64,000 nt of DNA from the NCBI GenBank assembly GCA_028710885.1, contig JAQTTG010000004.1, forward strand, positions 1 to 64,000, read 5' to 3'. The notes under the pieces are model-generated. The model did not search any database and was not told the origin of the DNA. It saw only the letters and a list, made by a program, of their open reading frames with translations. Made by a program: the position numbers and the translations under genes. This document shows positions 2,377 through 18,255 of this stretch, piece after piece (the first letter of the stretch is position 1; each line of letters opens with the position of its first letter). This DNA comes from Sulfuricurvum sp. (lineage in GTDB: Bacteria; Campylobacterota; Campylobacteria; Campylobacterales; Sulfurimonadaceae).

Positions 2377-2397
2377 TTATTTAAAAGGGGAGTCAAT

Positions 2398-3372
2398 ATG
2401 CCTTATGTCAATGTGAAATTGTCTTCTAAAATTGATGCCCACAAAAAGCAAAATATTGCAAATGGGATTATTGATTTTCTTGTTGATATTCTAAAAAAAG
2501 AACGCTCACTATCATCACTTCTCATTCAAGAAACAGAGAGTGATTGGTATATAGGATCTGATTTACAAAATAAACAAATTCAAGTCTTTGTAGAAATCAA
2601 TATTACGGATAATACAAATACAGAGTTCGAAAAATCAGAAATGATTAAATCGACTTTTGATCTACTTGAAAAAGAGCTTGGATCTTTACCATTAGCTACC
2701 TACATCATAATTAAAGAACATAAAGCTACTGATTGGGGATATAGTGGAATAACTCCAAAGCAAAGGAAAATAAGCAATAATACCTTTCAAGGTCGTTATG
2801 ACGGTATGGGCAATAATGGAGCAAAAAGAGCTTTATTGGTTATCGATGTACAAAATGAGTATTTTACGGGAAAACTCCCCGTGTGTTATCCTGAAAACTC
2901 CTTGCCGAATGTTCTAAAATCAATTGAAGCAGCCAAGGAACATGACATTCCCGTCATCATGGTGCAGCACACACTGCTCTCACCCGAGGCCAAAGCATTT
3001 ATAAAAGGGACAGATGGATGGGAATTGCTCGATGAGATGAAATCGGTGAACTACGACTATTACATCGAAAAAAACTTCCCCAGTGCTTTCGTCGGTACCG
3101 ATCTGGAAACGTGGCTTCGGCAAAACGGGATCGATACGATCGTCATTAGCGGGTATATGACCCAGTTTTGCTGCGATACGACAGCACGATACGCGTATCA
3201 TCTTGGATTCAATGTCGAATTTTTATCCGATGCTACCGCAACGTTGTCATTTGAAAACAATGCCGGTAAAGTGAACGCGGAAGAGCTACATCGGGCGATC
3301 CTTGTCGTACAAGCCGCACGTTTCAGCCGTGTCATGAGTACACAAGAGTGGATTCAGTCTATCGATGCTTAA
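2398..3372 (+). CDS. Fusion of tautomerase-like domain(s) with an isochorismatase-family hydrolase
   Basis: Residues 1 to about 115 begin MPYVNVKLSS, with the Pro-2 that becomes the catalytic N-terminal proline in 4-oxalocrotonate tautomerase-like enzymes. This part appears to hold two tautomerase-like repeats, ending ESDWYIG and ATDWGYSG. From about residue 142 the protein becomes a cysteine hydrolase: ALLVIDVQNEYF supplies the aspartate, YYIEKNFPSAF the lysine and GYMTQFCCDTTARYA the nucleophilic cysteine of the isochorismatase/nicotinamidase triad. Such hydrolases cleave C-N or C-O bonds; the substrate is unknown. The ribosome site GGGG lies seven bases before the ATG. The first half is AT-rich (17 G/C in 2461-2520) and the second half is not (29 G/C in 3121-3180), suggesting the two parts have different origins. 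It is the first gene of the TetR-controlled operon. Confidence 0.8.
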   Translation: MPYVNVKLSSKIDAHKKQNIANGIIDFLVDILKKERSLSSLLIQETESDWYIGSDLQNKQIQVFVEINITDNTNTEFEKSEMIKSTFDLLEKELGSLPLATYIIIKEHKATDWGYSGITPKQRKISNNTFQGRYDGMGNNGAKRALLVIDVQNEYFTGKLPVCYPENSLPNVLKSIEAAKEHDIPVIMVQHTLLSPEAKAFIKGTDGWELLDEMKSVNYDYYIEKNFPSAFVGTDLETWLRQNGIDTIVISGYMTQFCCDTTARYAYHLGFNVEFLSDATATLSFENNAGKVNAEELHRAILVVQAARFSRVMSTQEWIQSIDA

Positions 3373-3382
3373 TGGAAACGAT

Positions 3383-3856
3383 ATGAATATAGTGTTAAGT
3401 TCACTTGAACCAAACGATATTACAATCATCCGCGAATGGAAACCTTATCCGGCAGAGTTTTCCGAGCTTGACTATGCCCTGCGTGAAGGAGGATGGCTTG
3501 ATGAATTTTATCCCTATCCGAATACACACCTTTTTACGGCAAAATGGGAGAATGAAATTATAGGATTTTCGCTGTTATCAATCCAAGGTGTTGAAACCGA
3601 ATTTCGTATCGCTCTCAAACCTGATAAAATAGGCAAAGGTTTCGGAAAAACTGTGGCTTTAGCCACCATAACAGAATTTTACAAACTGCATGAGGAAGAT
3701 TCACTTTATCTCATTGTACGATTGAGCAATACAGTTGCACAAAGCCTCTATAAAAGCATCGGATTTATTCCTGATCAAGAAGTCACCAAAGATATTCAGG
3801 GAATTCCAGTGCAATTTTTGAAAATGAAATACACTAAAGGATACATTTGTGGGTAG
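3383..3856 (+). CDS. GNAT family N-acetyltransferase
   Basis: A protein of 157 residues with the GNAT acetyl-CoA fold: a central strand EIIGFSLLSIQ, then RIALKPDKIGKGFGKTVALA carrying the pyrophosphate-binding loop (KIGKGFGK, a Q/RxxGxG-type motif), and NTVAQSLYKSIGFI, the usual C-terminal helix and strand. The acceptor substrate cannot be predicted. I choose the ATG at 3383 because GGAA lies about seven bases ahead; an ATG at 3365 inside the previous gene is possible but lacks a ribosome site. It is the second gene of the operon; the next gene overlaps it by eight bases. Confidence 0.8.
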   Translation: MNIVLSSLEPNDITIIREWKPYPAEFSELDYALREGGWLDEFYPYPNTHLFTAKWENEIIGFSLLSIQGVETEFRIALKPDKIGKGFGKTVALATITEFYKLHEEDSLYLIVRLSNTVAQSLYKSIGFIPDQEVTKDIQGIPVQFLKMKYTKGYICG

Positions 3857-4382
3857 TCAAAGCGGATCATTAAATGAATATGACAAAGAATTTATAACCG
3901 AACAGAAGATATTTTTCATTGCCAGCTGCAGCGGTAAGGAAGTGAACCTCAGTCCTCGCGGATATGACTGCTTTCGTGTCAGCGGAGACAACGAAGCGCT
4001 CTTTCTCGATTACGCCGGAAGTGGAAACCGTACCGCGCGCGACATCGAAAATGACGGCGAAGTAACCGTCGTATTTTGTTCATTCGGTCCAAAACCTCAA
4101 ATCCTCCGCCTCTTTTGCAAAGGGGAAACAATCGATCGAAGCGATGATGCGTGTCGAAGTTTGTTTGATTCCAACGATCTACGCGGTATGCGGCGGTTTG
4201 TCAAACTTCATATCTACTGCGTCGAACACAGCTGTGGAATGAGTGTCCCAATGTATGAGTTTAAAGAAGAACGCAAAACTATCAAAGAGTGGTGCGCAAA
4301 AGATGCTGATAACGGCAAAGTCGATGAGTACATCGCCGATCACGCCACACCTCCGGATCTGAGTGAATTTAGGCATTGGTAA
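3849..4382 (+). CDS. Pyridoxamine 5'-phosphate oxidase-like flavoprotein
   Basis: A 177-residue protein resembling the FMN-binding split-barrel (PPOX) family: FIASCSGKEVNLSPRG early on, then DNEALFLDYAGSGNRTARDI and EVTVVFCSFG, the strands that cradle FMN, and a C-terminal CGMSVPMYEF region. Members of this branch are usually annotated as pyridoxamine phosphate oxidase family proteins, but many have unrelated flavin-dependent reductase roles. The start is a GTG at 3849 with AAAGGA seven bases ahead; the GTG overlaps the GNAT stop (GTGGGTAG). It is the last gene of the operon. Base composition is richer in G+C than the start of the operon. Confidence 0.75.
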   Translation: MGSQSGSLNEYDKEFITEQKIFFIASCSGKEVNLSPRGYDCFRVSGDNEALFLDYAGSGNRTARDIENDGEVTVVFCSFGPKPQILRLFCKGETIDRSDDACRSLFDSNDLRGMRRFVKLHIYCVEHSCGMSVPMYEFKEERKTIKEWCAKDADNGKVDEYIADHATPPDLSEFRHW

Positions 4383-4391
4383 AAGAATAGA

Positions 4392-4406
4392 ACTCAAGAG
4401 TTTTTC
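4392..4406 (+). terminator. Weak terminator-like hairpin after the PPOX gene
   Basis: AACT and AGTT flank a CAAG loop and are followed by TTTTT, ten bases after the PPOX stop codon. The stem is only four pairs, so the call is tentative. The rest of 4383-4496 shows nothing recognisable. Confidence 0.3.
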
Positions 4407-4496
4407 GTACATTCTCCCGTACCCTGCTTTTAGAAGCGAAAAAGCTGTCATAAAATATATGAAAAACACTGTCAGTTTGACATAATAGTCATATAC

Positions 4497-5483
4497 TTAT
4501 ATTTGAGGTTTTTCGACATTTGAACTTTTGAATCTTCCTATAAAATGTTCACTTTGCCCACATTCACAAGTGTAATGCAATCCTTGTCCAAATATTCGGG
4601 TCATCTTCATCCTTTTGTCACAAAAAACACAGAAAAAATAAGGTCCTCTTTCGATCACATTTTTCCCCACAGGAATATCTTCTATTATTCTTTTTCGATT
4701 TTTTGCTTCTTCTCTGGCCTTTAGACATGCTTCTTGCAATTCGATTTGATAGTGCTTTTCTTCTTCCTCTTCTTGGAGTATTCTGAGGCGTTCTTCTTCA
4801 GCTTTTTGCAGTGCTTCAAGATGACGTTGCTCTTCTGTTTTACCGGAAATGTGCCCTACTCGTAAAATATTACTCACAACTGTAGCAAGATCTAAATTAG
4901 GATTATCATTGACCCAAAACTTGCTATCTTTTTCAGATACTTTGTAAAACTTCAACTGTTCCGTTTCATATAAATAACGCGGTGGAGAAGAAAAAAACCA
5001 ATGTACAATTTCTGCTCCGCCATTAATATAGTTCAAAGTTCTTTGGTGTGTTGTGACGTCATTTTGTGATGATAGCTGTATCTCAAATGTTACACAATCA
5101 AAATATTTGTCCGAAAGTAAATCATGCCCTTTTTTACACAACACATCAGCAATTGCCAAACCGCCAAATGGCCATACCATGCGAGCTTCCGTTGTTGCAC
5201 TCCATCCTGAGTCAATCGCAGCATGACGGATAATATTTTTTGCCTCAATATGCTGTCGTGTTTCTGGAGCGTAAAGAGTACAACCACCTTTAGCCTTATG
5301 AGCAAAAAAACACGTTCCATATTCAGAACGCACTTTTGGAATAGCTATAGCATCACAGCATGGTAATGTCAGAGGATTTTTTTTATATGTTTTACGAATT
5401 TCGAGCCATGCAGGATCATTCATACTGGTCGCATAAACATCCTTGCCGTCTCTTATTGCACGTATCGGCATCAAAACCGACAC
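4497..5483 (-). CDS. CoiA-like nuclease with C-terminal zinc ribbon
   Basis: A 328-residue protein. Residues ~55-160 carry the CoiA/competence-nuclease pattern: CFFAHKAKGGCTLYAPET, then HIEAKNIIRHAAIDSGW, LAIADVLCKKG and VTFEIQLSSQND with THQRTLNYI. These supply the acidic and basic residues of a restriction-endonuclease-like core (D in ADVL, ExQ in FEIQ). A charged, probably coiled-coil stretch rich in E and R/K follows (about residues 220-270), then CVFCDKRMKM and YTCECGQSEH, a likely four-cysteine zinc ribbon. Role: probably DNA processing; CoiA promotes recombination during natural transformation in firmicutes. The start could be the GTG at 5483 or the ATG at 5471; neither has a good ribosome site. 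It lies 43 bases downstream of the NERD gene on the same strand. Confidence 0.7.
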   Translation of the reverse strand: MSVLMPIRAIRDGKDVYATSMNDPAWLEIRKTYKKNPLTLPCCDAIAIPKVRSEYGTCFFAHKAKGGCTLYAPETRQHIEAKNIIRHAAIDSGWSATTEARMVWPFGGLAIADVLCKKGHDLLSDKYFDCVTFEIQLSSQNDVTTHQRTLNYINGGAEIVHWFFSSPPRYLYETEQLKFYKVSEKDSKFWVNDNPNLDLATVVSNILRVGHISGKTEEQRHLEALQKAEEERLRILQEEEEEKHYQIELQEACLKAREEAKNRKRIIEDIPVGKNVIERGPYFFCVFCDKRMKMTRIFGQGLHYTCECGQSEHFIGRFKSSNVEKPQI

Positions 5484-5526
5484 GATTCGACATGATTGAG
5501 TCGTCTTTTGGTAAATTCAGCGCTGT

Positions 5527-6309
5527 TCATGCGATAGGAGCTGTATGCTTGCATTTGGGATAATTACTGCAACCGTAAAACTCTTCACCGTTCTTTTTAT
5601 TCTGTCGTAAAATCATTGTACTTCCACATCGTTTACATGTCAACGTTTCGGTATTGAATGCTGGTGAATTATGACGTTCTTTAAGATTTTCTACATGTGC
5701 ACGATCGGTTGTAAAGCTTTGCTCTAATCGTTTACGTTGTAGCTTACTAAGGATTTGGCGAATTTGTAAGGGGTTCAATCTCTCTTGATCAAAAGACTTG
5801 ATGTATTTAGTATAAGAAATTCCTCGAAAGACATTCTCCGGCATTGTGGTTTTAAATGTGCATTCTCCAACGAATGCAATCACCGATGTCAAAGCTGCTG
5901 GTGGAACTTCCAATATCTCTTCGAGTGCTTTAATATGGCGATAGTTCTGATGGAGAGGGTTTTGAAATTGATGTTTTTGTTTGAAGTTTTGCTGCGTCCA
6001 TTGCTTTTGATGTTCGCCACCAAAAATCCACCCTTTCATATTTTTGGTCTCGATGACAAATAGGCCGTATTTGGAAACTAGGATATGATCGATCTGGGTA
6101 GTTGAGCCATCTGATAACTGCAACGTGACATTTTTAACCGGAGTATAAATCGTCTCATCCAGTACTACTGAATTAGTAAAATTGACAAGTCCCTCCCCCA
6201 TTTTTCCTTTCATGAACGGACTTTTAAAAAAAAGTATGACGATAATCAGAAGAAAGATTGGCCATGCGCCGGAGAATATTGAACTTAAAAGTGTAGAACT
6301 ATCGAGCAT
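5527..6309 (-). CDS. NERD-domain nuclease-related membrane protein with topoisomerase-type zinc finger
   Basis: A 260-residue protein. An N-terminal hydrophobic segment (WPIFLLIIVILFF) should anchor it in the membrane. Next comes a NERD domain: GKMGEGLVNF, TQIDHILVSKYGLFVIETKN and MKGWIFGG, with the D...E.K arrangement of the nuclease-like fold. The C-terminus has CKRCGSTMILRQ and FYGCSNYPKCKHTAPI, the four-cysteine finger found at the end of bacterial topoisomerase I, which should bind single-stranded DNA. Expected activity is DNA binding or cleavage near the membrane. The ATG at 6309 is preceded by GGA at suitable spacing. It probably shares a transcript with the CoiA-like gene and is divergent from rmuC. 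Confidence 0.8.
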   Translation of the reverse strand: MLDSSTLLSSIFSGAWPIFLLIIVILFFKSPFMKGKMGEGLVNFTNSVVLDETIYTPVKNVTLQLSDGSTTQIDHILVSKYGLFVIETKNMKGWIFGGEHQKQWTQQNFKQKHQFQNPLHQNYRHIKALEEILEVPPAALTSVIAFVGECTFKTTMPENVFRGISYTKYIKSFDQERLNPLQIRQILSKLQRKRLEQSFTTDRAHVENLKERHNSPAFNTETLTCKRCGSTMILRQNKKNGEEFYGCSNYPKCKHTAPIA

Positions 6310-6510
6310 CTATCAATCCAAAATCATTTTTAGCTATTGTACACTTTTTATAAACAAAAGTAGTTATTTTAAGCTAAGAGATATTACTCTATCGAATAGT
6401 ACAATTTATTCGAAAAGAGCCGCGTTGAGAATACCTCATAACTTCCCTTTCCTAAACCAAACAATCCGTTTGAATACTTCTCTTTCAAGAACTCAAAGTA
6501 AAGGATATAT

Positions 6511-8391
6511 ATGGAATTTGAAATAATAATTGCCGTATTAATTTTATCAGTCGTTGTCATAGGTTCAGTTGTCTGGATGCGAAAAAGCATTCAAAGTTCA
6601 CCTGATGCAACTCTACAAAACGAGCTTAATCAAAAACGTGATTTAGCCGCTCAAGTTCCTTTATTAACGCAGAGAATAGAAAATTTAGAGATTGAAAAAA
6701 ATGATTTGGCACGATCAATAGATACACAAAAAACTTATATATCTCAAAAAGATGTGACTATAGCTGAAAATGAAAAAGATCGAATTGAACTTTCAAAAAA
6801 ACTTGCAGATAAGGAAGATCAAGTTGTTAAACTCGAAAGTGAAAAAAATGAGTTACATAAATCGATCGAAGCGCTAAAAAGTCAGTTGCAACAAGCCAAT
6901 AGCAATATTGATAAAAAAGAGTATGAATTACAACAGTTAACTCTTGGTTTTCAAAAAGATACTGAACGCTTTAACAGCAAAAATAGCGATTTGCAAAATG
7001 AGATTAATACACACAAAGATGACTTAAAAACAGCACTAAAGAAAATAGATGCCTTGCTTGAAGAAAATACCACTTTAACCAGTCAAAAGTCAGTATTACA
7101 AGCTGATTTAAACGCCCTGAATGAAAATAAAAATGAGTTACTTCAGACAATCAAACTCTTAAAAGATGATCTTACTTCAGCTCAAGGCAAGATAGAAACG
7201 TTACAGGAAAACAACAGCGAACTTAAGGCAGAAAAATCTAAATTTCAGGCAGAACTTTCTGCTCAACAAGAAAACAACGAAAAACTGAAAAAAGATTTTG
7301 AAGAACAGAGTAAAAAGCTTGAGCTAAAACTCAACGAAATCATGCAGCAAAACCTTGATAGTAAACTCAAAAAATTCGATGAAACTTCGATGAAGTCACT
7401 TGATGGCTTACTAAAACCTTTCAAAGAAAATCTAGATACATTCAAGAAAAAGGTCGAAGACTCTCAAGAAAACAGTACCAAAAAGTTTGCCGAGCTTTCC
7501 AAAGAGATAGAGCAAGTTACCAAAGCAGGTATGAATATCAGCAAGGAAGCCGAAAGCCTTACAAAAGCGCTTAAAGGCAAGAAACAGATGCAAGGCAGCT
7601 GGGGAGAGATGATACTTGAAAGCGTACTTGAATATTCCGGTTTACGCAAGGGTGTACACTATGAAACACAAGAAAGCTATAAAGATGAGGAAGGAAATAC
7701 TAAACGCCCTGACGTGATCATAAAACTACCGCAAGAGCGAACTATCATCATCGACTCGAAAGTCTCACTCAATGATTATAACAACTATATACATGCAGAA
7801 ACAGATGAAGAACGGCTATTGGCGACAAATGGAATCGTTACTTCATTTAAAAACCATATAGACTCACTTGATAGCAAAGATTATGCTCATTACAAAGTAG
7901 GAACATTGCAATACGTCTTTATGTTCGTTCCTATTGAAGGTGCTTTTGCTATGGCCATACAGCAAGATCCAAAATTGTATGAGTACGCACTCAAAAAACA
8001 TATTGCCATAGTCAACCCTTCGACGTTGACCGTTTCACTCAGAACCATCTATCTTTATTGGCAGAGCGAGCAATCAAATACTTTGGCATCAAAACTGTTT
8101 GACGAGGCGGGGAAACTATATGACAAAATGGTTGGATTCTCTGATAGTTTTGGAAAAATTGGAAAACAGTTGCAGAGTGCAACAAATACATATGAGCATG
8201 CTCATAAGCAATTAACAGAAGGGCCCGGCAATTTGATGGGAAAAGTTGAAAACTTAAAACGCCTTGGTGCACGAACTTCAAAGACATTGAAAGATTCAAA
8301 AATGGAATTTCAAGATTTCGATGAAGTAGAAATGGAGATTGAATTGCTACCAGAACCTGTAGTCGAAACGCTTTCATCAGATGATGAGTAA
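6511..8391 (+). CDS. rmuC: DNA recombination protein RmuC homologue
   Basis: A 626-residue protein. Residues ~5-22 form a single membrane segment (IIAVLILSVVVIGSVVW). A long coiled coil rich in K, E, N and Q spans about residues 40-280. The RmuC domain follows: KGKKQMQGSWGEMILESVLE, VHYETQES, RPDVIIKLPQERTIIIDSKV (nuclease-like core with the D...DSK acidic/lysine set), FVPIEGAFAMA and a final helical region. RmuC proteins limit recombination at inverted repeats. AAAGGA precedes the ATG at 6511 at good spacing. It is divergent from the NERD/CoiA pair. A short open frame overlaps its last 11 bases. Confidence 0.9.
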   Translation: MEFEIIIAVLILSVVVIGSVVWMRKSIQSSPDATLQNELNQKRDLAAQVPLLTQRIENLEIEKNDLARSIDTQKTYISQKDVTIAENEKDRIELSKKLADKEDQVVKLESEKNELHKSIEALKSQLQQANSNIDKKEYELQQLTLGFQKDTERFNSKNSDLQNEINTHKDDLKTALKKIDALLEENTTLTSQKSVLQADLNALNENKNELLQTIKLLKDDLTSAQGKIETLQENNSELKAEKSKFQAELSAQQENNEKLKKDFEEQSKKLELKLNEIMQQNLDSKLKKFDETSMKSLDGLLKPFKENLDTFKKKVEDSQENSTKKFAELSKEIEQVTKAGMNISKEAESLTKALKGKKQMQGSWGEMILESVLEYSGLRKGVHYETQESYKDEEGNTKRPDVIIKLPQERTIIIDSKVSLNDYNNYIHAETDEERLLATNGIVTSFKNHIDSLDSKDYAHYKVGTLQYVFMFVPIEGAFAMAIQQDPKLYEYALKKHIAIVNPSTLTVSLRTIYLYWQSEQSNTLASKLFDEAGKLYDKMVGFSDSFGKIGKQLQSATNTYEHAHKQLTEGPGNLMGKVENLKRLGARTSKTLKDSKMEFQDFDEVEMEIELLPEPVVETLSSDDE

Positions 8392-8539
8392 TTTCTTTTG
8401 CTATTCATATCTTAAGGGCGCGGAATGGCGCATCCAGATCATAGAAGCGTTTCACACGATCATTGAATCGTACAGACTATTTTTAATCTCGCATGAAACG
8501 GAGATTAAAGAGATGTTTGAGATAGTTGTTGAATTATAA
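8381..8539 (+). CDS. Small open frame between rmuC and the PHP-ATPase gene
   Basis: A 52-residue frame starting MMSNFFCYSYLKGAEWR and ending FEIVVEL. It overlaps the end of rmuC by 11 bases in another frame and stops 15 bases before the next gene. I do not recognise it. The central part looks helical. Its base composition is richer in G+C than both neighbours, so it may be a remnant of an older gene rather than an active one. Confidence 0.3.
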   Translation: MMSNFFCYSYLKGAEWRIQIIEAFHTIIESYRLFLISHETEIKEMFEIVVEL

Positions 8540-8554
8540 AAAGGGGACGAGAAT

Positions 8555-10888
8555 ATGGTACCTATCTATTTGGATTTACATATACATACATCTGAGAATG
8601 AGGAAAATTTAAATCTTAATTACGATGTTGATTTATTATTAAGTAAAATAGCTGAAGTAAGTAGCAATTCAGATTTTTTAATATCACTAACTGATCACAA
8701 TACAATAAATAAAAATGCATATATAAGATTACTTGAAAAAACAAATAATGTTATTTTAGGTGTTGAGTTACATATTAAAAATGCAGAAACAAGACCTCCA
8801 TATCATTGTCATTTATATTTCAATTTAGATATGATTACCGAAGATGCAATAGATGACATCAATCATATTTTAGATGAACTTTATCCTGAAAAAATTATCA
8901 AACCTGCACGCATAGAACATGGTCAGTCTGTTCCAGAAACAAAAGTAGAAAATATTGAAACTATAATAAGAAAATTTGATCAATATGATTTTTTACTATT
9001 ACCTCACGGTGGACAAAATCACAGAACATTTGATGAATCTGTGGATGGTCATTTTAATACTCGTCTTGAAAAAAGCCTGTATTACAATCAATTTGATGGA
9101 TTTACCGCTAGAAACCAAAGAGGCTTAGAAAGAACAATAGCCTTCTTTAGTCGTCTTGGAATAAATGAATATATAAATTTGATTACATGTACTGATAATT
9201 ATAATCCTGTGCGTTATCCTAAAACAAAATCAGATGATGCAAGCGATTTTCTTCCTACTTGGATGCTGGCTAAACCTACCTTTGATGGTTTAAGACTATC
9301 ATTATCAGAACGCTCTAGATTAATTTATAGTGAAACAAAACCTGACTATTGGGCTGAATATTTAAAATCTGTTCAACTAGAAAATGATTTAATTAAAATT
9401 GATGTTTCTTTAACACCTGGGCTAAATGTTGTTATCGGAGATTCCTCCAGTGGCAAAACACTTTTTGTTGATGCAATTATATGTAAAACTATGAATGAAT
9501 TTTCGACATCAAACTACAAAAATTTTGGCATAGAAAACATTGAACTTGACAATCCTTCACATTGTATACCTCATTATATTAATCAAAATTACATTATGAG
9601 TTTAATAACTGGAAACAAAAATGAAATTGACAAGATTGATATTATAAAAAAAGTCTTTCCAGATGAAAAAGATGTAAGAGATAGAATTCAAAATGGTTTA
9701 TCAGATTTAAAAAGAGATATAAATGATTTGATTGATTATGTTGAAAAAATTGAAAAGTCAGAAAATGAAATATTAAAAATTCCATCTGTGAATAGACTAA
9801 TTCAAACTTCAGAAATAAAAGATAATATTATCAGATTTATACAACCTCCTGATGATCTAATAAACAAAATGGATTACTCAACGTCAGTTTACGAGCAACA
9901 TTTAAAATCAATTGATGAGCTTCAAAAATTTATGCAAAACAACGAATTTATTGAATATATTGATGCTGAACTGCAGCTAATAAGAGCTAAATTAGATAAT
10001 GCATATTTATTATCTAATTTTGAACAAGAAGTTAGAACACAAATTGAAATTGGGAAAAAGAGCTTAGATGATTTATTTTCTACATTAAATAAAGAAAGTC
10101 AGTCCAAAAAAGAAAATTATGAAAAATTAATCTCACAAATTACTCAATATACTGATAATTTGAATAAATTTAAAAAACAGCTAGAAAAAATCCAATCTTA
10201 CGATTTAACAATTCAAAGCCGTGTGATTGAATCGATGGGACATCAATTATCTATTGAATATACTTTTAAAATAGATCGGGATGTTTTTTTAAAAACAATT
10301 AATGAATTTCTAAAAAGTGAATCTAAAATTGGATCTTTGGAACAATTAAATCCAAGAGAACTATACGCTGCTAACTATAAAGATAGACCTAAAATTAATG
10401 GCTATGAAGAGTTCAAAACAAAAGTATACATTGAATTTGAAAACATGAATAAAAGAAAATATAGAATTATCACAAGAGATGGTAAAGAATTTGATTCATT
10501 AAGTGCTGGTTGGAAAACATCTGTGCTTTTAGACTTAATTTTAGGATATGAAGGTGACACGGCACCGTTGATTATAGATCAGCCAGAAGACAATCTAGCA
10601 AATAGTTACATTAATAAAGGATTGATAGATGCAATAAAAAAAATAAAAGAGCGCAAACAAGTTATTATCGTATCGCATAATGCTACGATACCTATGCTAG
10701 GCGACGCTCAAAATGTTATCTTATGTCAATATGATGAAAAAATATTGATTAAATCCAATCCTTTAGAAGGAAAAATACATGGTATTAGTGTAGTTGATCA
10801 TATTGCGACAATCACTGATGGTGGGAAAACATCTATAAAAAAGAGAGTTAAGAAATACAATATGAAAAAATTTGAGGAAATAGTATGA
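8555..10888 (+). CDS. PHP phosphoesterase fused to an ABC/SMC-type ATPase (TrlF-like)
   Basis: A 777-residue protein. Residues 1 to about 255 form a PHP-type metal phosphoesterase: LDLHIHTSE (H9, H11), SLTDHNT (D47, H48), GVELH (E71), LLPHGG (H151) and CTDNYN (D214). Residues ~285-777 form an ATPase of the SMC/Rad50 type: Walker A GDSSSGKT (295-302), a long charged coiled-coil-like middle, a signature-like LSAGWKTS (about 649), Walker B APLIIDQPED (about 670) and VSHNA as switch histidine. This matches proteins annotated as TrlF-family AAA-like ATPases. Related ATPase-nuclease fusions are common in anti-phage islands, but I infer a defence role from architecture and neighbours only. GGGGACGAGAAT precedes the ATG. 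The gene is strikingly AT-rich (14 G/C in 9661-9720), unlike core genes here, which suggests recent transfer. It is coupled to the next gene by an ATGA overlap. Confidence 0.8.
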   Translation: MVPIYLDLHIHTSENEENLNLNYDVDLLLSKIAEVSSNSDFLISLTDHNTINKNAYIRLLEKTNNVILGVELHIKNAETRPPYHCHLYFNLDMITEDAIDDINHILDELYPEKIIKPARIEHGQSVPETKVENIETIIRKFDQYDFLLLPHGGQNHRTFDESVDGHFNTRLEKSLYYNQFDGFTARNQRGLERTIAFFSRLGINEYINLITCTDNYNPVRYPKTKSDDASDFLPTWMLAKPTFDGLRLSLSERSRLIYSETKPDYWAEYLKSVQLENDLIKIDVSLTPGLNVVIGDSSSGKTLFVDAIICKTMNEFSTSNYKNFGIENIELDNPSHCIPHYINQNYIMSLITGNKNEIDKIDIIKKVFPDEKDVRDRIQNGLSDLKRDINDLIDYVEKIEKSENEILKIPSVNRLIQTSEIKDNIIRFIQPPDDLINKMDYSTSVYEQHLKSIDELQKFMQNNEFIEYIDAELQLIRAKLDNAYLLSNFEQEVRTQIEIGKKSLDDLFSTLNKESQSKKENYEKLISQITQYTDNLNKFKKQLEKIQSYDLTIQSRVIESMGHQLSIEYTFKIDRDVFLKTINEFLKSESKIGSLEQLNPRELYAANYKDRPKINGYEEFKTKVYIEFENMNKRKYRIITRDGKEFDSLSAGWKTSVLLDLILGYEGDTAPLIIDQPEDNLANSYINKGLIDAIKKIKERKQVIIVSHNATIPMLGDAQNVILCQYDEKILIKSNPLEGKIHGISVVDHIATITDGGKTSIKKRVKKYNMKKFEEIV

Positions 10889-11118
10889 AGCTAGTTTTTT
10901 CCAAAGAAGAAAATGAAATCAAAGTAAAGTTGCATGAGAATGGTACCGAAGTAGATTTTAATTACATTGAATGGATAAAATTTATTCATGAAGGCAATGA
11001 ACTAGAGGAAACAATCTATTGTGAAGAAATTACGCCTGAAGAAAGAGAAAAGGTTAATGTCATGATTTCTAAAATCAATGATGCAATTATAAGACAGACA
11101 GAAAGCACAGTTGTATAA
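10885..11118 (+). CDS. Small partner protein of the PHP-ATPase
   Basis: A 77-residue acidic protein of unknown family. It starts MKLVFSKEENEIKVKLHENG and looks like two or three beta strands followed by a helix (TPEEREKVNVMISKINDAII). Its ATG overlaps the stop of the ATPase gene (ATGA), so the two proteins are made together, probably in a fixed ratio. Low G+C content matches the ATPase gene, so they likely travelled as a unit. Function unknown; an accessory subunit, substrate adaptor or immunity-type protein is possible. Confidence 0.65.
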   Translation: MKLVFSKEENEIKVKLHENGTEVDFNYIEWIKFIHEGNELEETIYCEEITPEEREKVNVMISKINDAIIRQTESTVV

Positions 11119-11330
11119 ATCTGGATGTTTCTCTCCAAATCCCTCTGGCTGAAAAAGTACATCCCTGAGGTACTGACCCCATCCGATTTAGTAGTGAAAG
11201 TATGTTAAGACATTAATAAAATTTAGAGGTATATATGGAAACAATTCTCATTCAAGCGAAGTTTTTACCTAAGTTCAATTGGGGAGTCCAATCACTCTTT
11301 TCTTTTGCGTAGCTGTTCCCTTCTTGAATA
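11119..11330. other. Mosaic non-coding stretch between two accessory operons
   Basis: The 212 bases between the PHP-ATPase unit and the convergent GNAT gene hold no confident gene. A 27-codon frame at 11125-11208 (MFLSKSLWLKKYIPEV...) follows directly in frame after the small partner gene and is richer in G+C, and a 25-codon frame starts at 11235 after AGAGG. Both may be debris of lost genes or of an insertion sequence. No tRNA, clear terminator or direct repeat was seen. Confidence 0.4.
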
Positions 11331-11747
11331 TTACATGCTGCTCATAATTATTCTAAGATCATTAATAGAAATTACAAAATTTCTTCCATCCTCATCGTCA
11401 ATCTTTTGAAAGCCAAACTTATGTGCAAAACTGGCAGATTTTTCGTTAGTTGCTTCTATAATTAAGTAATCAAATTGATATTTGAAACTACATTCAATTA
11501 GAAAATCCAGAAAAGCTTTCCCATATCCTTGACGCTTTTTATAAAATCCAATTCTTGCTATAGTTAAATTTTTTGGAAAGTTTTTTGAAAAGTAAACCCC
11601 ATTCCATCGCAAATATATATCAAATTTTCTTGCAAATGCACTAATATTCGCATCAACAGCATGAGAGTAATTTTTTTTATACTTGAACGTTTTTTTTAAA
11701 TAGCTATTTAAATCTTCACAGAAATACGGAATGTTTTCTTTTTCCAT
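11331..11747 (-). CDS. GNAT family acetyltransferase at the end of the recombinase operon
   Basis: A 138-residue protein whose C-terminal two thirds fit the GNAT fold: LTIARIGFYKKRQGYGKAFL contains the acetyl-CoA loop (KKRQGYGK), followed by FDYLIIEATNEKSASFAHKF and GFQKID. The N-terminal part is lysine- and aromatic-rich. Its ATG follows the stop codon of the coiled-coil gene with no gap (TAAATG), so it is almost certainly translated from the same mRNA as the recombinases. Target unknown. It could modify a recombinase or be passenger cargo. A GNAT toxin is a weaker possibility, since no DUF1778-type antitoxin is beside it. Confidence 0.7.
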   Translation of the reverse strand: MEKENIPYFCEDLNSYLKKTFKYKKNYSHAVDANISAFARKFDIYLRWNGVYFSKNFPKNLTIARIGFYKKRQGYGKAFLDFLIECSFKYQFDYLIIEATNEKSASFAHKFGFQKIDDEDGRNFVISINDLRIIMSSM

Positions 11748-12230
11748 TTACTCACTCCATTTATTGTTAGCTGGAGTGCTAAAACCTGAAGAATCTATTT
11801 TTGACAGCAATCCCATATTATCATGCCGCAACACTTCGTTTTTTTGCACAAGTTTTCTATTTTTTTCATTGAGTTTTTTGATTTGCTCTTTAAGCTTTTT
11901 GATCTCTTTATTTGCATTCTTTAGTTCTTTTTGCACTTCAAGATATAGTCCAGCATCGATCACACCCTCATTTGGAAGCCCAATATATTTGCCTATACCA
12001 TAAGCCTTAAGTATCTCTTCAGCATGTTCCGTTGAAAAAGTCACATTAGAAAGCCCTTTTTTTTGAGGGTCTATAATTTTAGATATTTCGGCAAGTCGTC
12101 GATTCGATGCACTGCGCTCATGGTTAGAAATCGCATATTTGCAAGACTCCTCAACAAGCCACATTGTCTTTTTTATCTTTTCTTCTGCAAGTTTATCTGT
12201 ATGCTTTTTTTGTATGTCGCTTTTAGCCAT
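11748..12230 (-). CDS. Small DNA-binding/coiled-coil protein, GmtX/TnpC-like
   Basis: A 160-residue protein. The first half (KIKKTMWLVEESCKYAISN, then SASNRRLAEISKII and FSTEHAEEILKAYGIG) looks like a small helical DNA-binding domain. Residues ~103-145 are a strong coiled coil (LKNANKEIKKLKEQIKKLNE and onward). This layout resembles TnpC of Tn554 and the GmtX protein of Gamma-Mobile-Trio elements, which accompany their recombinases; the assignment is from pattern and position, not alignment. Its ATG overlaps the upstream recombinase stop by eight bases (ATGGCTAA). Confidence 0.6.
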   Translation of the reverse strand: MAKSDIQKKHTDKLAEEKIKKTMWLVEESCKYAISNHERSASNRRLAEISKIIDPQKKGLSNVTFSTEHAEEILKAYGIGKYIGLPNEGVIDAGLYLEVQKELKNANKEIKKLKEQIKKLNEKNRKLVQKNEVLRHDNMGLLSKIDSSGFSTPANNKWSE

Positions 12231-13812
12231 GTTCTACCTCCGAAAGATTGATAGTCTCTACGTCCTCAAGGACTTTCAATTCATCCTCAAATGTTCGCTT
12301 ATAAAGGCGGTAAAACTTCAATGCCACCGCCATTCGATCGTCTGCCAAATGGTTCTTACCGATTTCTGCAAGATTATCGGCCCGTCTCGAATATTCTTCT
12401 GCTTGTGAGTAATAATACTCACGCAATTTAGGAGATGGAACAAGGAAATCACAACCAAGGCATTCAAAGTGGTTTCCGCACTTACTCGCATCAGGGCAAA
12501 AACCATAATCGGGGAGTTGGTGTGCGAAAGGGTTTTCCATGATTTTAGGCATAATATGTCTCATATCATAGACACTTTCGCCTTTGAACGTTACAGAAAG
12601 ATTTGCCTTGAGCTCAAATTCCAATATCTTTTGTTGCAATTCTATCTGATCCTGCTTGGCAGGCTTAATATAGCGGTCTGTTGCTCCAAAGCTATGGTGA
12701 TTACCCACATCCCGCAAAGCATCGGCAGTATGTGTTCCCCATGTGGCACGTTTCGAAATGGCGGTATGTTTATATTCTTTCATCTTAGGTGATTTACCTT
12801 TTTCAAACAAAGAATTTATTGTTTTACTCCAATACGATTCTAATCCTTTGTTCATCACTATAACTCGTTTCACTACTTTATCTTTACCAAAAAAGGCAAT
12901 ATGAGTCAGTAAAAAATCTTTTTCCTGTACTTGATCTTGTAAACTTTTCGCAATGGCTTGCTGGGCTTTAATCAAGTCAAAGAGCATCTTTTGCTGCGGC
13001 TCTTCAAGATTCACCATAATCGTCTTATAGGGGCGTTCTTCATCCTCATCAATCTTGTCCGTTGCGCCGCCTTGCTTGCCAACCCATGTCTTCAGCGTCC
13101 CTATCTCACCCTCTTTTAATTCTTTAGCGCAATCGAGAGGAAAACTGAGCAAGTCTTCCGGCCTTGTTCCATACATACGCATGAGCCAATAGCATACACG
13201 ATAATGCATCGGCGTCTCTTCGGAAGAAAAATGGCGATCGGTAATATCCAATTTCCATTGTGGAATCTGCTCGTATTTTCCGACTACGGGTCTGCTACTG
13301 TATGGACTTTTCATCGCTTCTATATTTTTGATCGTGGCTACACCAGGATATCCCTGCATTACTTTTATAAAATCAAGAGTATTTTGATAACAAGCATGTT
13401 TATAATTTTCGCCTAAATCTTTTCGATTCAGATGATCTTGAAATGCCCTAAGCGTATCTTTTCCTATATTCTTCGGGTTCAACTTTTTCGATAATATAAA
13501 TGCAAAAAAAGAAGATAAGTAATGTGAACGTATATATAGCCTACCCATTCTTGCACTTTCTAGAAGCGCAAACAACTTCACGAGTTTCTGCCATGCAGGA
13601 TTAAACTCCTGAAAAGAACCAAAATGTGCTTCTCTTGAAAGCCGCTTGTTTTCAACCGGTTGCACCCATTTTGAATCATTGAAACTGCTATCGGTAAATC
13701 GTTTTAATTGATTGATAATGCGTCGTTCCACGGCTTCATGACTATTATCTTCTTGACTCAACCATGCAGAATATCGTGAATCATCTTGGCCGTATTGTAT
13801 TTTTTTATTCAT
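12223..13812 (-). CDS. Tyrosine recombinase C (529 residues) with cysteine-rich segment
   Basis: Third recombinase of the operon. The catalytic half shows RMYGTRPEDLLSF (box I arginine), then KHTAISKRATWG and VGNHHSFGATDRYI, which align with the box II arginine, the GH pair and the nucleophilic tyrosine (RYI). The first histidine of the usual HxxR is replaced by isoleucine in AISKR, so activity may be altered or shared with a partner. After the tyrosine comes CPDASKCGNHFECLGCDF, four cysteines that could bind zinc, and a helical C-terminus. Its start overlaps the previous gene by eight bases (ATGAATAA), and its end overlaps the next gene in the same way. It has no obvious counterpart in a simple Tn554 trio. 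Confidence 0.8.
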   Translation of the reverse strand: MNKKIQYGQDDSRYSAWLSQEDNSHEAVERRIINQLKRFTDSSFNDSKWVQPVENKRLSREAHFGSFQEFNPAWQKLVKLFALLESARMGRLYIRSHYLSSFFAFILSKKLNPKNIGKDTLRAFQDHLNRKDLGENYKHACYQNTLDFIKVMQGYPGVATIKNIEAMKSPYSSRPVVGKYEQIPQWKLDITDRHFSSEETPMHYRVCYWLMRMYGTRPEDLLSFPLDCAKELKEGEIGTLKTWVGKQGGATDKIDEDEERPYKTIMVNLEEPQQKMLFDLIKAQQAIAKSLQDQVQEKDFLLTHIAFFGKDKVVKRVIVMNKGLESYWSKTINSLFEKGKSPKMKEYKHTAISKRATWGTHTADALRDVGNHHSFGATDRYIKPAKQDQIELQQKILEFELKANLSVTFKGESVYDMRHIMPKIMENPFAHQLPDYGFCPDASKCGNHFECLGCDFLVPSPKLREYYYSQAEEYSRRADNLAEIGKNHLADDRMAVALKFYRLYKRTFEDELKVLEDVETINLSEVEHG

Positions 13813-16228
13813 GCCACTTTACCACCTTCATAACGCTAGGTTTGTCGATATTCATTAAGAGATTTGCATAGCTCTCAAGGATGCCAGATTGAACGACATA
13901 AAACTCATACTTTTCATACTGCTCTTCTGTATGTCCACGTTGCTCATAAAAGAGTCGCAATTTCAATAATTCTCTATATTGCAACATATATAGTTCTTCC
14001 CACTTTTTTCGATAATGTGGAGAAACTTTGATATTTTCGCATGGTGCACAGGCTGAAGCTTCATGGAGTTTGCCACATATCCCCTGGCTTGGGTGGCGGA
14101 TACAACGTCCATACGACATTTCACGGCTGGTCGCATAGAACATTTCGACGATCTCGTTAAGCTCTTCTTCGCTGTACTGGTCGATGGCTTCTTGGGACAG
14201 ATTCACTGCAAATTCTCTTTTGAAAAATTCTGTATTCATCTCCATGAGTTTTAGCTTTCTAGCCATAAAATAAGCATTTTCCATCGTACTTTCAGAATTC
14301 CATCCAAAGAAAGCCTTGAGTTGAGCATCGCTAGCCCCATTTTCGATCATTTCGACTACCAAGGATACCCGCAACTGATACGGGGTGTAATGCCATAATT
14401 GACCTGTATTAGGATTCAAGATGTTATGCATTTTGATGAGATTGTTGACAGCTCCTTTAAGTGAACTTGTTGTCATTACCCCATACACATTTGAATTATG
14501 AACTCTTCGGATGAATATCGAAGCATGCCCCGAAGCCTTTCTCGCATCTTCGCTTACTTTGACTTGTTCTCTAAAAGCTTGGATCGCTTCTGAAAAGTTC
14601 AAAGGAATTTCACGTATCGGTTTTTTCCCTTTGCGTCCTTTTGTTTTTTCTTTTTTGTACTCCCATATGCAGAGCACCAACTTGCCATCTTTTTCTATTA
14701 GAGAATCTGGCGTGATCCCCTCTAATTCGTTAGGACGCAAACCTCCGGCTGCGATCAGTTCAAACGCATGTTTATACGTAGCTTCAAGCTCCCCGATATG
14801 ACACATAATCTCTGTAAATACGCTTTCAGGTATTGGGATACGGTTTGAAACTTGATCGGGTTTTTTGACTTTGATATCCTTGCATATGTTGACAATTGGC
14901 GGTTCAGGAAGCGGTCCCATCAGCGGGAGTTTTCTGATTGATTTTTTCGCCATCAAAAAATCAATCATGTTGCTTAAAAATACTTTTGCATCTGAAGCAC
15001 CTTTTTGTGACATTCCCCCGTCGTTCAAAAAGTCGATCAAGTCTCCTTTGGTAATACCTCTGGTACTTAGATTTTCAGTTTTTGAACGCCGACTTACTAC
15101 AAAGTTCAAGATACCTAATGCTGCTTGTATAGTCACCACACGAATCCTGTCGTCAAGCGAAAGGATATATTCCGCCCACTCGGTAAAAATCGGCAAGTTA
15201 TTAAACTTAACCGCATAAGAGCGTTCTCTGATTAGGTTTTGATGCAAAAAGACAAGGCTGAAAGATGCTTTGCGTTCTTTGAGGATGTTTTGGTTGGAAG
15301 AGAAACGTCTATTCTTTTGTTTTTCTATCTTTATCTTAAGCAGAGATTCATACTCTTCTTTTAGACCTGAGAGACTAAAAGAATATCTTATATCCTTCTT
15401 CCGAGCCGTATATGGATCATATCCAAAAACTTTATAATATGCTTCGTGAGCAGAGACAATCGGCGTGTTTTCCAAGATCAGCCTTTCAAACTGTTCTTCA
15501 AGCTCGTTAAGTACTTTATCTGGATTAAATACTTCAAATAACTTGTCAAATATTCCGCCTAAAGCATTGTGCGTCTGTTTAATGTCAGCAAGCGTATTTT
15601 TGCTACTATAGATGTCCTCAACGAACTTTTTAAGACTGCTAAAATCCCTAAGTATCGTATATGATTGCTCATTATTGGTACTTTGTCTAATATCAACATT
15701 AATATTTTTATATTTGATAGTCATTAATGGGCCGGAGTTGGTTTTAACCTTAAAAGCCCCATCGTCTTCATCCCAATATCGGTCCATTGCATCCTCAATC
15801 ATTAATAAAGATTGAGGATATGACCATTGATTCCATAGACTGCTCCGGACACCACTTCCGAACCCTAGGTGTAATAGAACTTTCCAACGCGCATGAAAGT
15901 CCATCGTCGCATGAACTTGTACCTGTTTGTATAGATAGGCAGAGACTTTATCCTTTTTAATATAGCTTAAAAGTTCGAGTAAAAAACCTATTGTACGAGG
16001 TCTTGGCTCATGATGGGTGATACTTTCTATGAGTTTTGGAAACGGCTCTTCTGAAGTAGCGATCTTTTTGCAAAGTGGCTCCCAGCAGCTTAATGAAAAA
16101 CCATCATTTAAAAGATGCGTATAATTTGCTCGATTTGCTTTGGAATGTTCGATAATTGGCTCGAAATACTCCACCAGCGCCATATATTCCTTATTGTTTC
16201 TTTGGCCTGTCGCAATCGGCTTAGTCAT
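13805..16228 (-). CDS. Tyrosine recombinase B (807 residues), GmtZ/TnpB-like
   Basis: An unusually long recombinase. Residues 1 to about 400 are a large N-terminal region of unknown fold. The catalytic part shows LIAAGGLRPNELEGI (box I arginine), WHYTPYQLRVSLVVEM (box II arginine, with tyrosine in place of the common HxxR histidine) and FFGWNSESTMENAYFMA (tryptophan and candidate tyrosine nucleophile). A cysteine/histidine-rich tail, CIRHPSQGICGKLHEASAC followed by APCENI, probably binds zinc. Large recombinases with such tails act with a XerD-like partner in Tn554-type elements. It overlaps recombinase A by eight bases (ATGACTAA). Confidence 0.8.
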   Translation of the reverse strand: MTKPIATGQRNNKEYMALVEYFEPIIEHSKANRANYTHLLNDGFSLSCWEPLCKKIATSEEPFPKLIESITHHEPRPRTIGFLLELLSYIKKDKVSAYLYKQVQVHATMDFHARWKVLLHLGFGSGVRSSLWNQWSYPQSLLMIEDAMDRYWDEDDGAFKVKTNSGPLMTIKYKNINVDIRQSTNNEQSYTILRDFSSLKKFVEDIYSSKNTLADIKQTHNALGGIFDKLFEVFNPDKVLNELEEQFERLILENTPIVSAHEAYYKVFGYDPYTARKKDIRYSFSLSGLKEEYESLLKIKIEKQKNRRFSSNQNILKERKASFSLVFLHQNLIRERSYAVKFNNLPIFTEWAEYILSLDDRIRVVTIQAALGILNFVVSRRSKTENLSTRGITKGDLIDFLNDGGMSQKGASDAKVFLSNMIDFLMAKKSIRKLPLMGPLPEPPIVNICKDIKVKKPDQVSNRIPIPESVFTEIMCHIGELEATYKHAFELIAAGGLRPNELEGITPDSLIEKDGKLVLCIWEYKKEKTKGRKGKKPIREIPLNFSEAIQAFREQVKVSEDARKASGHASIFIRRVHNSNVYGVMTTSSLKGAVNNLIKMHNILNPNTGQLWHYTPYQLRVSLVVEMIENGASDAQLKAFFGWNSESTMENAYFMARKLKLMEMNTEFFKREFAVNLSQEAIDQYSEEELNEIVEMFYATSREMSYGRCIRHPSQGICGKLHEASACAPCENIKVSPHYRKKWEELYMLQYRELLKLRLFYEQRGHTEEQYEKYEFYVVQSGILESYANLLMNIDKPSVMKVVKWHE

Positions 16229-17441
16229 GTTTTTTGCCTTCTTGCTCTTTCAGCAATTCATCGAGCCTAGCGATGCGTTTAGAATGTACGTTTTCTAATC
16301 TTTTCTCAGCTTCCTCTTTGTAAACATGGTCATTATAAGGCTTGTGAGCTTCAAGCGATTTCCATCCCATGATAAGATTGATTTGTGCATCTGTTATCAC
16401 TCCTTGGTGCTCCAGCCTTGCTAACTCTATTGCTCTTTGAGATCGTCCCGTGTGTGGCTTTACCTCACCTTTAATTCCTGCACGTTTTGCTGCGTTTTTA
16501 AGGGTACTGCGAAAACTTTCTTGCGTGTATGGCGTGAAAGGGATCTCACCATTAACTGCTCGAAGTGTCACAAAAAGGTATTCGCTGTCCTTTCTGCCCC
16601 CTTTCAATATTTTGTTCAGGTCTGGCGTCCGTTCATGAAACATATAAAGATTAATGAGTTGTACCCCGTGAGGACCAATCACTACTGTTCGAATATCACT
16701 TTTTTTTCCTTTACGACCTTTTGACCGTGATGGTTGAACCGTCATCTTTTTTGGGTCGAAATCGCTTATTTTTATGGAAAGAACTTCATCTATACGCATA
16801 CCTTTGAGTGTCAAAAAGAAAATGCTTTTGAGCATCAGCGTCTTGAAAGAATGGTACAGTGCAGCCAACTCCTCATCCGAGTATTCTTTGATATAAACCT
16901 TATTATTAGTTTTATGTGTTGAGATTGAATATTTGCTACAGATTTTGGCTTCTTTGTGTATATCCTGCCATCTGGTCTTTAATTCTCCGATCATATCAAC
17001 TGCATGTCCGTCTGCAGTCACTGATATGGATTTCACTATGTCATTATCATAAAATTCGGTCAAGTATTTGTAGAAGTGGATAAGCGCCGTTTCATAGAGA
17101 TTGATCGTAGTGGTCTGAACTTTTGGTGCATCTTTATACTGCCCATTCTTATCCCAAAAAATCGTCTGTTCAAAGAAGTCACGGATGTCCTTAGGCTGTG
17201 CATTGTAATATTGCTTTTTTCGTTTAAACAAAAAGTTGCAAAAACGAACTACAACACCAAGGTAAGTGTGTGGTTTGTTTTGACTGGTCAAAGGAAGCAT
17301 TCTTGCCCATCTGCTTAAAGGAAATTCTACGCTTTGGTTTAGGCAGATCACGTAATAAAACTCATTAGAAGGCTCTCTTCCGATACCCCTACCATTTTTT
17401 TTAACCTCTACTGTAGATCTAGCTTTTTCAAGTACAAACAT
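16221..17441 (-). CDS. Tyrosine recombinase A (406 residues), XerD-sized, GmtY/TnpA-like
   Basis: First gene of the operon and the only recombinase with a full conventional catalytic set: R216 in LKGMRIDEVLSI, H330 and R333 in KPHTGRSQRAIE, W360 in IMGWKSLEA and the nucleophile Y369 in HKPYNDHV. The W-to-Y distance of nine residues equals that between the last histidine and tyrosine of XerD. Residues ~45-145 are an N-terminal SAM-like/core-binding domain. AAAGG lies six bases before the ATG. The upstream 120 bases carry a -10-like box and inverted repeats that may be both promoter and recombination site. It overlaps the next gene by eight bases. Confidence 0.85.
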   Translation of the reverse strand: MFVLEKARSTVEVKKNGRGIGREPSNEFYYVICLNQSVEFPLSRWARMLPLTSQNKPHTYLGVVVRFCNFLFKRKKQYYNAQPKDIRDFFEQTIFWDKNGQYKDAPKVQTTTINLYETALIHFYKYLTEFYDNDIVKSISVTADGHAVDMIGELKTRWQDIHKEAKICSKYSISTHKTNNKVYIKEYSDEELAALYHSFKTLMLKSIFFLTLKGMRIDEVLSIKISDFDPKKMTVQPSRSKGRKGKKSDIRTVVIGPHGVQLINLYMFHERTPDLNKILKGGRKDSEYLFVTLRAVNGEIPFTPYTQESFRSTLKNAAKRAGIKGEVKPHTGRSQRAIELARLEHQGVITDAQINLIMGWKSLEAHKPYNDHVYKEEAEKRLENVHSKRIARLDELLKEQEGKKHD

Positions 17442-17496
17442 TGGATACCTTTATAATTTTAACACTATAAAATCAAATATTTTTGTATATACACCT

Positions 17497-17524
17497 AATA
17501 AATTCCTATTTATAGGGATTTATT
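17497..17524. repeat. Inverted repeat upstream of the recombinase operon
   Basis: AATAAATTCCTAT (17497-17509) and ATAGGGATTTATT (17512-17524) pair at 12 of 13 positions around two bases. A minus-strand TATAAT at 17522-17527 touches it, so it would sit at the transcription start of the recombinase operon. Further out, CAGTTATTAT (17537) and CAGTATTAT (17561) form a near-direct repeat. These could be an operator or recombinase-binding sites at the element end. Confidence 0.5.
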
Positions 17525-17565
17525 ATATTTTCAATACAGTTATTATGATTTTGAACACAACAGTA

Positions 17566-18255
17566 TTATAGCTTAACCACAACATACGCCTCTTTCTCAT
17601 TAAGCGTATCACTTGACCAATAATACCGCTGCATCATCACTCCAAAAAATTTCATATCAACACTCGGACGGGTAAAAGAATAATCGACGATTCTATAAAG
17701 TTCTTCGATAGTTGGAAGACGCCATGATTTTCCGTAAAGAGTCAAATTATCGCACATCTCCTTGGCATCGTCATAGGTATACTTAGTCCTCTTATCCGTC
17801 GCATCAAGTGAGTGCCAGAGAATATTAGAATAAGAGTCTATCGTCCCCATAGGCGTTATTTTATACTCACGGATACGTTTGGGCTTCACCTCATCGGTAC
17901 AAGCGGCAGAGATCCGTTTCCATGTCGGTGAGAGGGTAATATTTCGCTCTTTTGGATAGAAGCTGTATCCGAGCATCGATGTTTTACTGCCATCTCCTTC
18001 ACTTCCGGTTCCGATCTCACTGTTATCAGCAGCCGTCTGATCAGATGACCAATAACTGTACTTCGGATTAAAAGGGGCAGTTTGAGGGAGAGTATAGATT
18101 TCGCCTATACTCATGAGATGCCATCCATTCCCCAAAGAACGACAATATTCCCCTGCACTCTCTTGAGTAAAATCTTCTATGATGGCTAAATGAGTCTCAC
18201 CCCATAAAAAAAATGGAAACAGTAAAAAAATATAAAGTGATTTAGCGCTCGGCAC
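17566..18255 (-). CDS. Secreted DUF1566 protein, C-terminally truncated
   Basis: A 229-residue protein with a signal peptide (SLYIFLLFPFFLWGETHLA). Two DUF1566 (Lcl C-terminal) repeats are visible: GNGWHLMSIGEIYTL with YSYWSSDQT, then KSWRLPTIEELYRIVDYSF with YYWSSDTLNEKEAYVVV. Such domains end about 30 residues later in a strand and an RCVR-type motif, as the other DUF1566 protein in this window does (CFIRCVRKIK at 34790-35209). Here the frame stops at VVVKL, immediately where AT-rich sequence ahead of the recombinase operon begins, so insertion of the mobile element probably cut off the end. DUF1566 proteins are surface or periplasmic and of unclear function. The start overlaps the DJ-1 gene by 14 bases. 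Confidence 0.7.
   Translation of the reverse strand: MPSAKSLYIFLLFPFFLWGETHLAIIEDFTQESAGEYCRSLGNGWHLMSIGEIYTLPQTAPFNPKYSYWSSDQTAADNSEIGTGSEGDGSKTSMLGYSFYPKERNITLSPTWKRISAACTDEVKPKRIREYKITPMGTIDSYSNILWHSLDATDKRTKYTYDDAKEMCDNLTLYGKSWRLPTIEELYRIVDYSFTRPSVDMKFFGVMMQRYYWSSDTLNEKEAYVVVKL

Follow-up and report, generated by a model that had tools for sequence, protein, structure and literature searches.

Introduction

A four-gene set, comprising three integrases and a small coiled-coil/HLH protein, was catalogued as GInt in 2017 (PMC5385486). The cargo of these elements begins around the ginD stop codon, and each of the four genes is needed for excision and integration of the Pseudomonas stutzeri GInt (PMC5385486). 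GInts (Tn6571 family) are bounded by imperfect direct repeats of 10-17 nt, and they have been placed by the literature in Bacteroidetes, Firmicutes, Verrucomicrobia, and Alpha-, Beta- and Gammaproteobacteria. Text searches of open-access papers found no report of GInts in Campylobacterota.

Other multi-recombinase systems include Tn554, organized as tnpA-tnpB-tnpC, and the RIT (recombinase in trio) elements, which like the locus studied here have three adjacent tyrosine recombinases. RIT proteins are of ordinary size and, to our knowledge, RIT elements are without a small coiled-coil gene; we set them apart by description, not by sequence comparison. The Gamma-Mobile-Trio, or strand-biased circularizing element (SE; IntA-Tfp-IntB-Srap), also combines several recombinases within four core genes on site-specific islands with cargo, and its homologues have been reported only in Gammaproteobacteria (PMC10214605).

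Results and discussion

Organization of the recombinase operon

The window analysed here is a stretch of 64,000 nucleotides from Sulfuricurvum sp. (genome G000, contig JAQTTG010000004.1). A preliminary description of five consecutive minus-strand genes at 11331-17441 agreed with the open reading frames that we found, as did its reading of the junctions between them.

17441-16221, minus strand: gene 1, GinA-like tyrosine recombinase, 406 aa (PF00589 at 1e-11 and profile matches)
16228-13805, minus strand: gene 2, GinB-like large tyrosine recombinase, 807 aa (PF00589 at 4e-13 and profile matches)
13812-12223, minus strand: gene 3, GinC-position protein, degenerate tyrosine recombinase, 529 aa (alignment of relatives, profiles)
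12230-11748, minus strand: gene 4, GinD-position small protein, 160 aa (alignment of relatives, AlphaFold)
11747-11331, minus strand: gene 5, GNAT-like protein, first cargo gene, 138 aa (ORF, weak Pfam and PHROG matches)
16221-16228, minus strand: ginA/ginB overlap ATGACTAA, read from the sequence
13805-13812, minus strand: ginB/ginC overlap ATGAATAA, read from the sequence
12223-12230, minus strand: ginC/ginD overlap ATGGCTAA, read from the sequence
11745-11750, minus strand: ginD/GNAT junction TAAATG, read from the sequence

All three recombinase junctions have the 8-base ATGnnTAA form, and the overlapping start and stop codons imply putative translational coupling of the four genes. The three 8-base overlaps are kept in the relative G022, while those of G030 and G431 include 13 bases and 1 base, unlike the form in the window. 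Thus, tight coupling is general and its exact form is lineage-specific. The identical form says nothing on stoichiometry, and the fixed ratios in a recombination complex that had been read from it are not implied. A sigma-70 promoter scan upstream of ginA found none. The palindrome AAATCCCTATAAATAGGAATTT upstream of ginA (window 17460-17560), almost unchanged in G022, is a candidate operator.

Features of the individual proteins

Gene 1 has the full R-HxxR-W-Y set of conserved residues (R216, H330xxR333, W360, Y369). In gene 2 the set reads R-YxxR-W-Y (R498, Y617xxR620, W643, Y653), and a Cys/His motif (YGRCIRHP..CGKL..CAPC) lies at the C-terminus.

Gene 3 itself gave no match in Pfam, NCBIfam and PHROG searches. 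Its relative in G030 matches a PHROG integrase (1e-4), and profile alignment links gene 3 to Tn554 TnpB and canonical GinB. R217, H372 and Y381 are invariant in all five copies, and the Arg II position, where Tn554 TnpB has the second arginine, is occupied by lysine (K348) in 5/5 copies. The protein ends in the motif CPDxxxCGNHxECLxC; its AlphaFold model (pLDDT 43) was too poor for fold searching. Gene 4 encodes N-terminal helices and a long C-terminal coiled coil (93-147), modelled by AlphaFold with a mean pLDDT of 63.5 and 82-92 in the coiled coil. Gene 5 is weakly GNAT-like (Pfam IDM1_C at 0.001, under the cut-off; PHROG acetyltransferase at 3.5e-4).

Distribution of the four-gene order

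A search for the same gene order in other genomes, as had been suggested for this locus, was positive: the order A-B-C-D was found in G022, G030 and G431, and in degraded form in G282, where ginA is lost and ginB is broken. The copies in G030 and G431 have 28-38% identity to the window proteins. Given this recurrence, the gene order is far from chance. When gene 2 was searched in 41 genomes of the same genus, G022 (86%) and G030 (34%) were found besides the window's own genome. A gene 3 profile run over 397 genomes of the phylum had G000, G030, G282 and G431 among the matches listed; G022 was not. The operon is therefore rare in the phylum (4/397 genomes sampled), and this divergent branch occurs within Campylobacterota in Sulfuricurvum and two other genera.

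No GNAT gene adjoins ginD in any of the four relatives G022, G030, G431 and G282, which identifies the GNAT gene as cargo and rules it out as a functional part of the module. Of the five-gene module in the preliminary description, the four core genes that recur together were retained.

Insertion into an Lcl/DUF1566-like gene

The operon is preceded by the remaining head of a protein-coding gene.

17566-18255, minus strand: truncated target-gene head (Lcl/DUF1566-like), 229 aa, with the last ~25 native residues replaced by VKL-stop (alignment of relatives)
17560-17592, minus strand: attL, host GCGTATGTTGTG (codons AYVV) joined to the element end GTTAAGCTATAATACTG (alignment of relatives)
17442-17577, minus strand: conserved element left end upstream of ginA, with subterminal TTCAAAATCATAATAACTGTATT and the palindromic AAATCCCTATAAATAGGAATTT (G000/G022 comparison)
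Island right end: ..TTTAGTTTAATCC

Comparison of occupied and empty sites, another check proposed earlier, was also positive: the target gene is intact in relatives and interrupted in G000 and G022. Homology to ~19 intact relatives stops at codon 226 (17578) and is followed by VKL and a stop codon; in those relatives the gene runs on as AYVVGFKLGSVATV..RCVSE-stop (GFKLGSVATV..RCVSE-stop). G000 and G022 are cut at the identical codon, and their DNA is nearly identical from that codon inward.

The displaced tail of the target gene was searched within the window and is absent there. It lies in the same genome on another contig (attR, G000:C29 ~23430), directly before the malic enzyme gene, and is fused to a conserved AT-rich stretch at the right end of the island. 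G035 represents the empty site, with an intact target gene followed directly by malic enzyme. The right end in G022 is arranged as in G000, with the displaced tail before malic enzyme. A third right end, 73% similar, was found in G024, where the adjoining tail matches the type of that host; a search of the G024 assembly did not find the operon despite this right end. The AT-rich end of ~85 bp is kept in G000 and G022 and partly in G024. At the island ends of this lineage, we could not establish a clear direct repeat of at least 10 bases. Since attL and attR are on different contigs (C27 and C29), the interior of the window island is presumed, not assembled, and would include at least 17.5 kb of C27 and 23.4 kb of C29 if continuous.

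We also observed an intact paralogue of the target gene just inside the right ends (G000:C29 22566-23297, L071; G022:C49 98-862, L077), which looks as if the island carried a replacement for the gene that it breaks. The two island paralogues are 93% identical to each other, and the single G028 copy shares 85% and 83% identity with them; there is none beside the G024 right end. At all three right ends, an ATG of the element opens a frame (MKLTxxxFxLIL) that runs on into the displaced tail; the resulting short fusion peptide could be due to chance or be a small conserved ORF:

L071 ~9394-9507: MKLTxxxFxLIL fusion ORF
L077 ~2325-2429: MKLTxxxFxLIL fusion ORF
L135 ~1540-1650: MKLTxxxFxLIL fusion ORF

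Evidence for mobility

Between G000 and G022, identity is 75-88% for the Gin proteins and 58% for the target-gene protein. At pooled 4-fold sites of the gin genes, 352/554 (64%) are identical; for comparison, three host genes of the flanks give 35-42%, the target gene 48% and efp 53%, the last figure probably reflecting codon bias. The target protein of G000 groups with those of G021/G026 (74-75%), and that of G022 with G003/G012/G030 (67-70%). The cargo after ginD differs between the window and G022. The simplest reading of these comparisons is that the two islands arrived separately at the same site.

We also considered whether the recombinases, within a defence island, have been domesticated or are dead, with mobility lost. 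The presence of the operon in a handful of genomes only, the degraded copy of G282 and a gene remnant within the cargo are consistent with this reading. However, all four genes are intact in G000, G022, G030 and G431, the insertion point is identical in unlike hosts with different cargo, and synonymous divergence is lower than that of the hosts, which makes lost mobility quite improbable. Mobility of the island is supported comparatively; its excision and transfer, like the subunit roles, are inferred. In the parts read, no transfer machinery was found, so the island would depend on some other vehicle to pass between cells.

Presumed cargo of the island

Leftward of the operon, the following features were assigned:

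1-11330: presumed cargo to the contig end, with continuity over the contig break presumed
10885-11118, plus strand: 77-aa gene overlapping the PHP/AAA ATPase gene, presumed cargo
8555-10888, plus strand: PHP/AAA ATPase related to TrlF and the anti-phage protein Ppl, 777 aa, presumed cargo
6511-8391, plus strand: second RmuC (PADLOC RTasRmuC), presumed cargo
5527-6309, minus strand: NERD-like gene, presumed cargo

The RmuC gene was evaluated as the left chromosomal flank and rejected, because it is a second RmuC and the ordinary one sits elsewhere. Only two further genomes of the genus have close relatives of it, in surroundings of defence type. An island boundary between RmuC and the ATPase was ruled out as well: the pair of ATPase and 77-aa genes adjoins the same second RmuC in G023 too, without the operon.

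Between this cargo and the GNAT gene, window 11121-11230 is a likely gene remnant that resembles the start of an intact gene of G004 (495 aa, DUF2779-like by eye; 82% over 55 bases). In G030, a pair of genes encoding 400 aa and 130 aa (L037 15588-17179 and L036 62-478) lies beside ginA, and the 130-aa gene is found again next to ginD in G022. A PADLOC search with this pair gave no match. It is possible that these genes are an uncharacterised pair common to two island lineages.

A sister lineage at hup

In G030, G431 and G282 the ginD end of the operon abuts the 3' end of hup. The complete islands, measured to the displaced native hup end, span 26.5 kb in G030 (C4 61508 to 87993) and 19.4 kb in G431 (C8 12775 to 32196). 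Both have CTTAAAGA at each end, the candidate direct repeats of this lineage being CTTAAAGATTCAGT / CTTAAAGACAGCGT, and an island of this type provides a replacement hup end. Transcription of the operon runs toward the target gene, opposite to the orientation seen in the window island and in canonical GInts. The two lineages, with 28-38% identity between them, form a single protein family that has two targets and two orientations.

A TTGTACTATCAAATAGTACAA-like palindrome adjoins hup in all three genomes, with a similar form near the far end of the islands, and is a candidate binding site for a recombinase or helper:

L037 9540-9650: TTGTACTATCAAATAGTACAA-like palindrome
L085 12050-12200: TTGTACTATCAAATAGTACAA-like palindrome
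L086 10600-10720: TTGTACTATCAAATAGTACAA-like palindrome
L119 ~12700-12830: TTGTACTATCAAATAGTACAA-like palindrome

Comparison with GInts, Tn554 and the Gamma-Mobile-Trio

To obtain canonical GInts, we turned to ssb, whose end is a known target of these islands, and looked for E. coli genomes in which it is interrupted. In E. coli 2 HS-C, ssb is followed by genes of 415, 512, 677 and 139 aa and then by avs4. Alignments of 6-7 proteobacterial GInts were built with plasmid relatives from Xanthomonas, Pasteurella, Pseudomonas, E. coli and Bradyrhizobium; those of the window lineage were shallow (4-5 sequences), and off-diagonal controls of the profile-profile comparison stayed below 20%. With the single E. 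coli GInt as comparator the values were weak, and the 6-7-member alignments raised GinA and GinB, not GinC and GinD. The gene 1 profile matched GinA at 97.3% and TnpA at 95.7%, and the gene 2 profile matched TnpB at 95.3%, GinB at 93.5% and GinC at 24%. With the shallow alignments available, gene 3 matched GinB at 78%, TnpB at 60% and GinC at 13.5%, and gene 4 matched GinD at 5.9% and TnpC at 1.3%. A tblastn search of genes 1-3 against plasmids gave nothing real beyond faint Tn554-type matches, and plasmid-borne GInts were not matched. The relationship of the window proteins to canonical GInt proteins is remote.

The organization of the locus is close to that of GInts such as the one at ssb in E. 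coli 2 HS-C. Common to both are three genes of the tyrosine recombinase family with a small coiled-coil/HLH protein, site-specific insertion into the end of a protein-coding gene, an AT-rich right end and defence-type cargo. In the window and G022, ginA adjoins the target gene and cargo starts right after ginD; the hup lineage (G030, G431) is unlike GInts in that ginD, not ginA, faces the target. The third integrase is degenerate in both systems, but K348 is not at the residue reported missing in canonical GinC. The proteins of 406/807/529/160 aa compare with about 350-420/490-530/620-790/135-160 in GInts; gene 2 is far longer than canonical GinB (487-532) and gene 3 shorter than canonical GinC (616-786). 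The targets here are the Lcl-like gene and hup, and the host phylum is one unreported for GInts in the literature that we found.

Because this four-gene set is already catalogued, the 529-residue recombinase, described earlier as an extra component, corresponds to what would be GinC in a GInt. The proposal of an undescribed variant in Campylobacterota stands in that the branch is new and divergent, and without a report found from this phylum.

The resemblance to Tn554 noted in the preliminary description was borne out by the profile matches of genes 1 and 2 to TnpA and TnpB. In Tn554-type elements such as that of Listeria ivanovii pLIS48, TnpA and TnpB are like genes 1 and 2, the C-terminal Cys motif is common, and a small coiled-coil helper and site specificity are found as in the window island. 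This raises the alternative of a Tn554-type transposon (TnpA, TnpB, TnpC) that gained one recombinase and is not a branch of GInts. In its favor, gene 1 matches TnpA strongly, gene 2 is slightly nearer to TnpB than to canonical GinB (95.3 vs 93.5, Cys motif included), and gene 3 also resembles TnpB. However, canonical GInts show Tn554 matches of the same strength (GinA 97.6, GinB 94.8, GinC 94.3), so this likeness cannot tell the two readings apart. Since canonical GInts relate to Tn554 as the window genes do, GInts, Tn554 and the window family form one superfamily. The Listeria module consists of three genes, none of them a counterpart of gene 3. Gene 2 of the window far exceeds TnpB in size, and gene 4 gave no match to DUF6262 (TnpC type). 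The four-gene order, gene 3, long cargo and a protein-gene target are GInt-like, and we consider the gain of a recombinase by Tn554 unlikely.

The Gamma-Mobile-Trio or SE shares with this locus several tyrosine recombinases, a small coiled-coil helper and site-specific islands. The likeness suggested earlier did not extend to sequence: the window proteins had no match at E<=0.01 to GMT-named NCBIfam families, including the GmtY model, which does match other recombinases. Furthermore, the degenerate recombinase is third here and second in SEs, whose reported homologues are all gammaproteobacterial. That the locus is an SE is thus very improbable.

Weighing this evidence, we hold with high confidence that genes 1-4 are a ginABCD-like module at the left end of a GInt-type island of a divergent branch, that this island has inserted close to the 3' end of an Lcl/DUF1566-like gene, and that the GNAT gene and the genes leftward of it are its cargo. 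The window island appears to work like a GInt, with genes 3 and 4 unmatched to canonical GinC and GinD by profile. A further reading, which we regard as possible yet doubtful, is a parallel family outside the GInts, whose large second and lysine-substituted third recombinases evolved independently from Tn554-like TnpA/TnpB and whose operon lies in either orientation at the island end.

Proposed mechanism and significance

By analogy with GInts and Tn554, GinA and GinB of this GInt-type island would be the catalytic tyrosine recombinases, cutting attL and attR and rejoining them into a circle. For integration, they would recombine the circle joint with attB. GinC, with lysine at the second catalytic arginine in 5/5 copies, is probably a DNA-binding or architectural protein and mainly a structural subunit of the synaptic complex, and the coiled-coil protein GinD may be a TnpC-like helper. 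The overlaps of start and stop codons would keep the four proteins coupled in translation.

These results extend three-integrase islands to Campylobacterota, a phylum for which the literature gave no report. They provide natural island ends, empty sites and, in a single protein family, two target specificities (the Lcl-like gene and hup), which makes the role of the third, degenerate recombinase and the importance of operon orientation at the island end testable. The island also explains how a constant position in Sulfuricurvum chromosomes comes to receive accessory and defence-type genes.
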